DNA from: Vulcanimicrobiota bacterium
Lineage (GTDB): Bacteria; Vulcanimicrobiota; Vulcanimicrobiia; Vulcanimicrobiales; Vulcanimicrobiaceae
DNA: 35,828 nucleotides
Reading direction: 5' to 3'
NCBI GenBank assembly: GCA_027306785.1
Contig: DAHUZB010000020.1
Span: 1-35,828, forward strand
Shown: positions 9,465-11,147 of the stretch, piece by piece
How positions within the stretch are numbered: position 1 is the first letter of the stretch
Layout of the letters: each line of letters opens with the position of its first letter
Notes under the pieces: model-generated
Told to the model about the DNA's origin: nothing
Database searches by the model: none
What the model saw: the letters and a program-made list of their open reading frames with translations, nothing else
Translations under genes and position numbers: made by a program

Positions 9465-9842
9465 ATGGCCGACCCCGCCGCCCTGAGCAATCGATTGCAC
9501 CTCTTCGCGCGTCCGTCGCACCGCGACGCGATGCGCGTCTTCTTCACCGAAGTGCTCGATTGCACGTACGACGAAGTCGACGGCGGACTCGAACACCCGG
9601 TCGCGATCGTGCGCGCCGCGCGCGGTGCCTTCAGCATCGAGTATCGCGACGATGCCTATGCCGCCGACGAGACCTGGCGCGGCGCCTGGATCGAGTTTGC
9701 GGTCGACGATCGTGAAGCGATGCAGCAGCGTCTGCGCGAGGCGGGCGTTCCCGAATTCCGCCATCCCGGCAGCGCCCAGCTCTACTACCGTATGCCGAAC
9801 GGCCAAGTCTTCCGCGTGATTCCGAACGCGGTGCTGCGCTAA
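9465..9842 (+). CDS. VOC-fold (glyoxalase/bleomycin resistance-like) protein
   Basis: A 125-residue single VOC module pair. LHLFARPSHRDAMRVFFTEVL opens the first beta-alpha-beta unit, while WIEFAVDDREAMQQRLREAG and YYRMPNGQVFRVIPN close the second. Candidate metal ligands are His17 or His20 and Glu/Asp residues, but the ligand set is not obviously complete, so enzymatic activity is uncertain. It starts 23 bases after the RDD gene and ends with a four-base overlap against the convergent sigma factor gene. Together with the VOC gene at 10806 it brackets that sigma factor, which hints at a shared regulon. Confidence 0.8.
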   Translation: MADPAALSNRLHLFARPSHRDAMRVFFTEVLDCTYDEVDGGLEHPVAIVRAARGAFSIEYRDDAYAADETWRGAWIEFAVDDREAMQQRLREAGVPEFRHPGSAQLYYRMPNGQVFRVIPNAVLR

Positions 9843-10753
9843 CGCTCGACTTCGATCCGCGCGAGCACGGCGGGATCGGCAACCAGTTCGATCGCCGTGA
9901 TGCGGTCGTCGGCGACGCCGAAGCGGAATGCGACGCGGACGGCTCCCTCGTGCATCCAGACCGCACCGGGCGTACCGTCGATGAGCGCGGCGATCGCCGC
10001 GCGTGCGCGGCCGGCGAAGATGCGGGCCACCGTATCCGCCCCGCGGATGCCCGTCTCGAGATCTCCGCTCTGCCAGTACTGCGCGCCGCCCATCGCGAGG
10101 ACGGCCGCATCGGCGCGCAGCGTCGCGCCGGGATCGAGCAGCGCGATGAGCGCGGGAAAATTCGCCGAACGCGCGGCGTGAAGGAAGGCGCGCACCAGCT
10201 CGTCGTGCCGCTGCGTCGCCGCATGACGATGCACCGCCGTACCGCGCACCCGCCTGCGGGCGCGACTCGCGAGCTGGCGCGCCGCATCGACCGAGCGGCC
10301 CAGGACGATGCCGATCTGCTCGAACGGCACGTCGAAGAGGTCGTGAAGCACGAATGCCACGCGTTCCGCGGGAGCGAGCGCATCGAGCAGCACGCGCAGC
10401 GCGGTGCCCACGGAGTCGCGAAGGAGCGCTTCGTCCTCGGGATGCTCGCCGGGCGCGTGCGCGGCGGCCTCGCGGCGCGGATCGTCGGGCGTGAGCTCCT
10501 CGCGCCGCCGGGCGCGCCGTTCGAGCGCATCGTAGCAGGCGCGGGCCGTGATCGTCGTGAGCCAGGCATCGAGGTTGGACACGTGCGCGATCTCGGCACG
10601 GCTCGCGCGCAGCCACGCTTCCTGCAGCGCATCGTCGGCTTCGGCCGCGGAACCGAGGATGCGTGCGGCGACGCGACGCAGGCGCGGACGCGCCGGCTCG
10701 AAGCACGCGACGAGACGCTGCGCGTCTCCGGTCATCGCCGTTCCGTCGAGCAT
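9839..10753 (-). CDS. ECF41/SigJ-like sigma factor with C-terminal SnoaL-like domain
   Basis: A 304-residue sigma factor of the ECF type. Region 2 contains AARILGSAAEADDALQEAW (29-47) and the NLDAWLTTITARACYDAL helix; region 4 is LAPAERVAFVLHDLFDVPFE (126-145) with recognition helix SVDAARQLASRARRRVRG. The C-terminal 130 residues form a SnoaL-like domain, from DELVRAFLHAARSANFPAL to RITAIELVADPAVLARI, the hallmark of ECF41. In this group the fused domain acts like a built-in regulator in place of a separate anti-sigma factor. The terminal ADPAVLAR resembles a degenerate version of the family's NPDKL motif. The start is uncertain: ATG 10753, or ATG 10735 six codons later. The gene is divergent from a VOC gene that may be its target. 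Confidence 0.88.
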   Translation of the reverse strand: MLDGTAMTGDAQRLVACFEPARPRLRRVAARILGSAAEADDALQEAWLRASRAEIAHVSNLDAWLTTITARACYDALERRARRREELTPDDPRREAAAHAPGEHPEDEALLRDSVGTALRVLLDALAPAERVAFVLHDLFDVPFEQIGIVLGRSVDAARQLASRARRRVRGTAVHRHAATQRHDELVRAFLHAARSANFPALIALLDPGATLRADAAVLAMGGAQYWQSGDLETGIRGADTVARIFAGRARAAIAALIDGTPGAVWMHEGAVRVAFRFGVADDRITAIELVADPAVLARIEVER

Positions 10754-10780
10754 GTCACGTTTCCGCGCGCTCGACCTGTC
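10753..10780 (+). promoter_or_regulatory. Candidate ECF41-type promoter for VOC gene
   Basis: TGTCACG (10753-10759) followed after 17 bases by TGTC (10777-10780) resembles the TGTCACA / CGTC promoter described for ECF41 sigma factors. It faces the VOC gene, with 25 bases from the -10-like element to the start codon. The first element matches well, but the second is imperfect and the spacer is one base long. It overlaps the upstream start codon of the sigma gene, which would fit better if translation begins at 10735. Confidence 0.35.
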
Positions 10781-10805
10781 ATCGTGGTGAAAGGAGCACA
10801 CATCA

Positions 10806-11147
10806 GTGCACAACGTTTCTCTCTTGGTCTATTCGGCATCGGATCTCGCCACGGCTAAGCCGTTCTTTCGCGAGCTCATCGGAGGCGACCCCTACGTCGA
10901 GAGCGCGCAGTACGTCGGCTACAAGCAAGGCGCGACGGAGATCGGTCTCGTTCCGAGTTCCGACGGGCGCGAAGGTGCGCTCGCGTATTGGGACGTCGAC
11001 GATATCGCGGAGCGCGTACGCGCGCTCGTCGCCGCGGGCGGCATCGTGGCGCAGGAGGTCACCGACGTGGGCTACGGCCTGCTGGTCGCGAGCGTAAAGC
11101 ACCCGAGCGGCGCGATCGTCGGGTTGCGTCAACAACCGCGCGGGTAA
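10806..11147 (+). CDS. VOC-fold glyoxalase-like protein
   Basis: A 113-residue VOC superfamily protein. The first half-module is VSLLVYSASDLATAKPFFRE followed by the VGYKQGATEIGLVP strand, and the second is LAYWDVDDIAERVRALVAAG ending in HPSGAIVGLRQQ. Family members include glyoxalases, dioxygenases and metal-independent binding proteins. The usual His and Glu metal ligands are not evident at the first strand, so it may be a binding or antibiotic-sequestration type. A strong AAAGGAG site lies nine bases before the GTG start. It is divergent from the ECF41-like sigma gene, the position in which ECF41 targets are often found. Confidence 0.82.
   Translation: MHNVSLLVYSASDLATAKPFFRELIGGDPYVESAQYVGYKQGATEIGLVPSSDGREGALAYWDVDDIAERVRALVAAGGIVAQEVTDVGYGLLVASVKHPSGAIVGLRQQPRG

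Follow-up and report, generated by a model that had tools for sequence, protein, structure and literature searches.

The window, i.e., the whole stretch of 35,828 nucleotides that we analyzed, is one contig of a host genome of 3.14 Mb that is 96% complete. Among named relatives, metagenome assemblies of Candidatus Eremiobacterota are the nearest. On its minus strand it carries a gene for an ECF sigma factor that has no adjoining anti-sigma gene, and divergent from it, on the plus strand, a gene for a VOC-fold protein (10806-11147). Two ordinary ECF genes are also present in the host genome. The features of the locus are as follows.

9465-9842, plus strand: second VOC-like gene, in tail-to-tail arrangement with the sigma gene and with a 4-nt overlap of the two stops
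9839-10735, minus strand: ECF sigma gene (open reading frame and Pfam), with the ATG at 10735 as the chosen start and 10754 and 10813 also open; domain order sigma2, a long linker that lacks WLPEP, sigma4, and a SnoaL/NTF2-like C-terminal domain that lacks NPDK
10753-10759, plus strand: predicted -35 box TGTCACG, with GTCACG invariant in 15 family sites and the leading T variable
10760-10776, plus strand: 17-bp spacer, its sequence conserved among family orthologues (mean majority frequency 0.85)
10777-10780, plus strand: predicted -10 box TGTC (mostly CGTC in the orthologues), with AT(A) after it
10791-10796, plus strand: ribosome-binding site AAGGAG preceding the VOC start codon, at the same position in orthologues
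10806-11147, plus strand: VOC-fold protein gene, putative target, 113 aa, GTG start

The initial annotation had placed the sigma factor between two VOC-fold genes. Pfam agrees, with matches to Glyoxalase for the gene at 10806 (E=0.002) and to Glyoxalase_6 for the one at 9465 (E=0.0035), both below the Pfam cut-offs. The idea that both flanking genes matter did not survive the comparison with other loci: among 115 of them, a gene of the 9465 type lies beside no other sigma relative (E<=1e-4). Hence, we rejected it as a part of the system and regard it as an unrelated neighbor.

The predicted structure of the 10806 product (AlphaFold, pLDDT 89.0, pTM 0.73) has the paired beta-alpha-beta-beta-beta fold. 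Among solved structures, 2r6u matches it best (Z 14.5, rmsd 2.1 over 110 residues), followed by glyoxalase I, methylmalonyl-CoA epimerase, and the mitomycin-binding Mrd, and the sequence identity of the product to solved VOC structures is about 11-22%. Metal-dependent VOC enzymes have conserved His/Glu metal ligands. Among 20 members of the VOC family, none of the invariant or nearly invariant columns holds a histidine, and a classical metal centre is therefore unlikely. The VOC genes of the listed clade I orthologues (L007-L018) start with TTG, and that of the window with GTG. The conserved TTG perhaps keeps the expression of the VOC gene low.

In the sigma factor, Pfam recognizes sigma-70 regions 2 and 4 of ECF type. 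A SnoaL-like C-terminal extension had also been described from the sequence. Pfam gives no match to such a domain in the window protein at E<=0.1; the domain scores just above the gathering score in the relative L024 and below threshold in the orthologue L008. The predicted structure (pLDDT 85.8) has an NTF2/ketosteroid-isomerase-like domain at residues ~170-292, with fold matches over residues 169-293 (Z about 9-11), in line with a SnoaL-like extension at the level of the modeled fold. The linker, around residues 77-110, is modeled with low confidence.

The same annotation had called the sigma factor ECF41-like. In Wecke et al. 2012 (PMC3426412), WLPEP is a mark of ECF41, and in a second study NPDKL contacts the linker (PMC7730460). 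Both WLPEP and NP[DE]K are found in 10 of 103 distinct sigma relatives, WLPEP only in 2, and neither in 91; the window sigma and its whole clade are among the latter, and the window protein reads ADPAVL in place of NPDK near the C-terminus. The WLPEP sigmas form one side of a highly supported branch of the tree, and the WLPEP-bearing relatives (30-36% identity) are separate paralogues. With the model of the SigJ subfamily (NCBIfam NF007214, cut-off 271), the window sigma scores 192.8 bits, below the cut-off; five other relatives without WLPEP score 201-262 and three WLPEP relatives 301-350. The likeness to ECF41 thus holds for the domains and the promoter, but WLPEP and NPDK are absent and the SigJ cut-off is not reached.

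The putative target also differs. Wecke et al. 2012 (PMC3426412) give TGTCACA-N16+-1-CGTC as the consensus for ECF41 and COE genes as the sole targets, the partners named there being carboxymuconolactone decarboxylase, oxidoreductase, and epimerase. VOC proteins are not among these partners (PMC3426412), in agreement with the initial view of a VOC protein as an unusual ECF41 output. The window sigma has no adjacent COE gene, its neighbors being VOC genes instead, and COE genes are found beside relatives of the same clade. We found no description of a VOC protein as an ECF41 target in the literature searched, an absence of little weight as most subscription papers lay outside the search. The work retrieved on extracytoplasmic function together with vicinal oxygen chelate, and that on Eremiobacterota and sigma factors, is apparently unrelated, as judged by titles and the start of abstracts.

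The element previously noticed in the divergent gap, TGTCACG-N17-TGTC, lies at 10753-10780 on the plus strand. It had been likened to the ECF41 promoter and indeed has the same form, with differences in the window at the last base of the -35 and the first base of the -10. Family orthologues mostly read CGTCACG...CGTCAT, and the -10 of the window reads TGTCAT. As the base 5' of GTCACG is mostly C in the orthologues, the leading T of TGTCACG is incidental. Hence, of the boxes first delineated, the GTCACG core stands, and the first T and the TGTC at -10 are peculiarities of the window.

The frequency of the motif is uninformative. The heptamer TGTCACG occurs 4 times in the window vs 4.88 expected, as if at random, which had been named as a result that would speak against the element. 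The genome-wide search for the -35/-10 pair proposed with it gave 3 matches to TGTCACG-N16..18-TGTC in the 3.14 Mb vs 0 for the reversed control. We thus rejected any claim of significance by motif counts alone, since neither the heptamer nor the bipartite pattern exceeds chance in the window or the genome. In the 3.14-Mb genome, the VOC site is the only exact match to the 29-bp pattern, and no site has one mismatch. Two mismatches are found at 13 sites, 12 of them inside long open frames, and on these numbers we rejected a larger regulon in the host genome.

The conservation of the element is more telling. We compared, column by column and anchored on the motif, 15 family loci (window included) whose sigma orthologues have at least 61% identity. 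GTCACG is unchanged in all 15 sites. The majority base of a column has a mean frequency of 0.97 across both core boxes, 0.85 across the spacer, and 0.68 across the leader. The value drops to 0.60 for the first codons and to 0.53 for the upstream 45 bp, so that the 29-bp block is conserved far above its flanks. It is because of this conservation across orthologues, and not because of counts, that the element is more than chance. A fortuitous match in GC-rich DNA, which would fit the counts in the window and the genome, is already refuted by this footprint. The enrichment above scrambled patterns described below also speaks against it, and its probability is negligible.

We searched 103 genomes of the order for the linkage between VOC and sigma genes. 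In these genomes, 17 VOC genes adjoin a sigma of the window type, and the motif lies directly upstream of the VOC gene in 16 of them. In the remaining locus (L025), the sigma and VOC genes form a tight pair, in that order, with the motif upstream of the sigma gene. Four loci have both genes in the same direction (L017, L022, L023, L026), and there too the motif lies at the start of the VOC gene. In G024, the partner of the sigma is a carboxymuconolactone decarboxylase gene (CMD by Pfam) bearing the motif, and a VOC copy unlinked to the sigma also bears it. The same is true of a second VOC copy in G006, followed by a DUF1801 gene and divergent from a contig-cut sigma. The earlier reading that the element points at the VOC gene at 10806 is thus borne out by comparison, as the motif stays with the VOC gene. 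No same-direction motif was found upstream of the sigma gene in the 15 family orthologues, and autoregulation of the sigma was rejected on this ground; several Actinomycetota relatives do have such a motif.

The VOC gene is not indispensable, since the promoter outlives it in three genomes where it is lost or a remnant: the promoter now precedes a DUF1801 gene in G009 and G010, and another gene in G026. A DUF1801 gene is often found directly after the VOC gene (L116, 1144-1476 and 749-1147; L012, L022, L025, L015, L020). Together with its position after the promoter itself where VOC was lost (G009, G010), this suggests that a VOC-DUF1801 operon is ancestral. The window has no DUF1801 gene.

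Across the 103 genomes, the search for VOC genes gave 31 copies in 30 genomes. The motif is present in 20 of the 21 copies with an ECF41-type sigma found in the genome vs 2 of the 10 where none was found (Fisher p 4.7e-5), the categories having been set after the loci were seen. The first count includes L025, by virtue of the promoter upstream of the sigma, and takes G015, whose WLPEP-type sigma is elsewhere in the genome, as sigma-positive; its single miss is G051, with GGTC at -10. If L025 is scored as a miss, the count becomes 19/21 (p 2e-4). The comparison is confounded by the sigma-less VOCs being partly more distant. Among the 25 closest copies in the VOC tree, the motif accompanies 19/19 with a sigma vs 2/6 without (p 0.0012), or 18/19 with L025 as a miss (p 0.0055). 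Some of the genomes are incomplete (G013 68%, G019 85%, G084 85%, G047 86%), hence a sigma that was not found is not necessarily absent, and a more distant sigma match in G019 (E 2.5e-21, without WLPEP) was left out of the sigma count.

These data bear on whether the element instead serves the sigma gene, as its promoter or operator, or is recognized by a different sigma factor or regulator, with the VOC gene merely adjacent. It is found 18-45 bp ahead of the likely start of the sigma gene, and the unusual conservation of its spacer might befit an operator. The two ordinary ECF genes of the host genome could provide another reader, and G012 keeps the motif before its VOC gene with no ECF41-type sigma found in the genome. 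However, the orientation and distance to the VOC gene are kept in the four loci where the sigma is reversed, and in G024 the motif is kept at a VOC gene with the sigma elsewhere in the genome. The element also has the form of an ECF41 promoter, and 8 of the 10 VOC copies without a found sigma lack it. We therefore consider this explanation improbable, and the assignment of the predicted promoter to the VOC gene has strong comparative evidence.

Three loci show other states of the pairing. In G019 (L170, 1902-1970), a sigma remnant of ~23 codons lies beside an intact VOC gene with its promoter. In G059 (L175, 1-110), the VOC gene is kept, no such sigma was found, and the -35 has decayed with the spacer and -10 intact; this VOC promoter is a natural loss-of-function control. 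In G051 (L182, 1-974), the genes of a contig-cut ECF41 sigma of WLPEP type and of a VOC relative are divergent, and GTCACA-N16-GGTC lies in the gap. From this locus, the VOC pairing may reach canonical ECF41 too.

To place the element among wider relatives, we scored 105 sigma relatives of the 113 loci, 8 having been dropped beforehand (the window's second copy, the genome's two ordinary ECFs, and duplicate or near-duplicate contigs). We looked for the pattern GTCAC[AG]-N15..17-[CT]GTC at most 350 bp upstream. It is divergent in 33 loci and has the same direction in 15, and eight scrambled patterns gave 0-5 matches. The divergent targets are 12 VOC genes in Eremiobacterota, 3 in Actinomycetota (L043, L071, L092), 4 genes of CMD type, 5 epimerase-like genes, 5 other single genes, and 4 cases without a called gene. 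Among these, CMD is confirmed by Pfam only in L024, with L041, L080, and L083 in its BLAST cluster, and the neighbor names epimerase-like, YceI-like, SRPBCC-like, and ABC transporter were assigned by eye. In Actinomycetota relatives, the same motif precedes the classic ECF41 targets, i.e., carboxymuconolactone decarboxylase and epimerase-like genes. The presence of these outputs along with VOC genes among the 33 targets indicates that they are alternatives behind one promoter type.

A stricter family pattern, GTCACGTT-N14..16-YGTCAT, is found in 25 places in the 103 genomes vs 1 for the reversed control. Twelve are at the sigma/VOC locus (that of G010 with VOC lost), one is at the second VOC copy of G006, and one is before an MFS gene in G078. 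The other 11 are mostly in long open frames, and their number exceeds the single control match. The G078 case is a near-identical copy of the promoter, spacer included, before an MFS transporter gene (L131, 1501-1529 and 1607-2848), and the sigma-VOC locus is present in this genome as well. This transporter gene is a possible second target.

Two sigma groups of the order bear VOC. A single clade for the 20 VOC-linked sigmas is rejected (p-AU 2.9e-5), this group having been named after the tree was seen; for the 19 rows that make up the two sigma groups of Eremiobacterota, a single clade is not rejected (p 0.10). With the proviso of this post hoc naming, we discarded the idea that the VOC pairing of the sampled sigmas arose only once. 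In L021, the VOC protein encoded beside a group II sigma falls with the group I VOC proteins in the VOC tree, and the promoter spacer resembles that of group I. Hence, it seems that promoter and VOC gene moved together as a cassette.

Taken together, our results suggest that this soil bacterium very probably uses a sigma factor with a built-in sensor-like domain to switch on one neighboring VOC gene. As judged from comparative sequence data, this sigma factor likely acts as a one-component switch and has essentially a single target, the VOC gene at 10806, with a predicted promoter GTCACG-N17-YGTC. The SnoaL-like domain would bind a small molecule and hold or release the sigma2-sigma4 core. The active sigma would direct RNA polymerase to the predicted promoter at 10754-10780, assigned by conservation, from which the VOC gene would be transcribed with a short leader. 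The VOC product, whose fold serves to bind or modify small molecules, might then capture or transform this compound or a related one. As the sigma gene lacks such a promoter in the clade, one would expect control to be exerted through protein conformation. Such a switch would work like ECF41 but without the WLPEP-NPDK latch, and the usual output enzyme (decarboxylase, oxidoreductase, or epimerase) would be replaced by a VOC protein without conserved histidine.

Another reading makes the VOC protein part of the sensing itself: it would remove or present the ligand of the SnoaL-like domain, and the pair would form a feedback loop. The VOC and NTF2 folds both bind small molecules, and the tight, repeated pairing of these sigmas with small-molecule proteins of different folds would suit such a loop. 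However, within one sigma clade VOC, CMD, and epimerase-like partners can stand in for one another, and some sigmas have no VOC (G009, G010, G026), which makes this reading unlikely. We favor the one-component switch with the VOC gene as its output.

ECF41-type sigmas are widespread one-component switches, and the proposed system has implications for their evolution. We would tentatively, and with some doubt, describe the 91 of 103 sampled relatives as a widespread sister branch of ECF41 that lost both halves of the latch, kept the SnoaL-like domain and the promoter, and switches by another intramolecular contact. In Eremiobacterota, the VOC gene would be a portable output cassette (promoter and VOC, sometimes with DUF1801) exchanged between sigma lineages. 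The joint absence of WLPEP and NPDK provides an evolutionary test of the proposed latch, and the latch-less sigmas are natural proteins in which to seek another one. As the clade keeps promoter and sensor domain while swapping its output (decarboxylase, epimerase-like, VOC), a trait shared by these outputs would point to the inducing small molecule.

Among known systems, the closest are those of ECF41, such as Ecf41Bli, Ecf41Rsp, RpoE9 of S. meliloti, and SigJ of M. tuberculosis. The likeness lies in the sigma2-sigma4 core with a SnoaL-like extension, the lack of an anti-sigma gene, and a GTCAC-N16/17-YGTC promoter before an adjoining small enzyme gene that is apparently the one target. In contrast to them, the window sigma lacks the WLPEP linker and NPDK and scores below the SigJ family cut-off, its promoter spacer of 17 is at the upper edge of 16+-1, and its putative target is a VOC instead of a COE gene. 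The window sigma also resembles SigG1 of ECF56 (PDB 7qh5) in having a SnoaL_2 extension, and SigG1 likewise lacks NPDKL (PMC7730460). This structure is its second-ranked fold match, with Z 10.9 but an rmsd of 11.4, and unlike the window sigma SigG1 works with an anti-sigma protein, RsfG. ECF205, ECF294, and ECF295 are further groups with a SnoaL_2 extension, the one trait compared. The VOC product, for its part, resembles in fold (1kmz, Z 12.3) and length the VOC proteins without a metal site, such as those of Mrd or bleomycin-resistance type. On sequence grounds, it is the combination of a VOC output with a latch-less sigma that sets the predicted system apart from the described ECF41.
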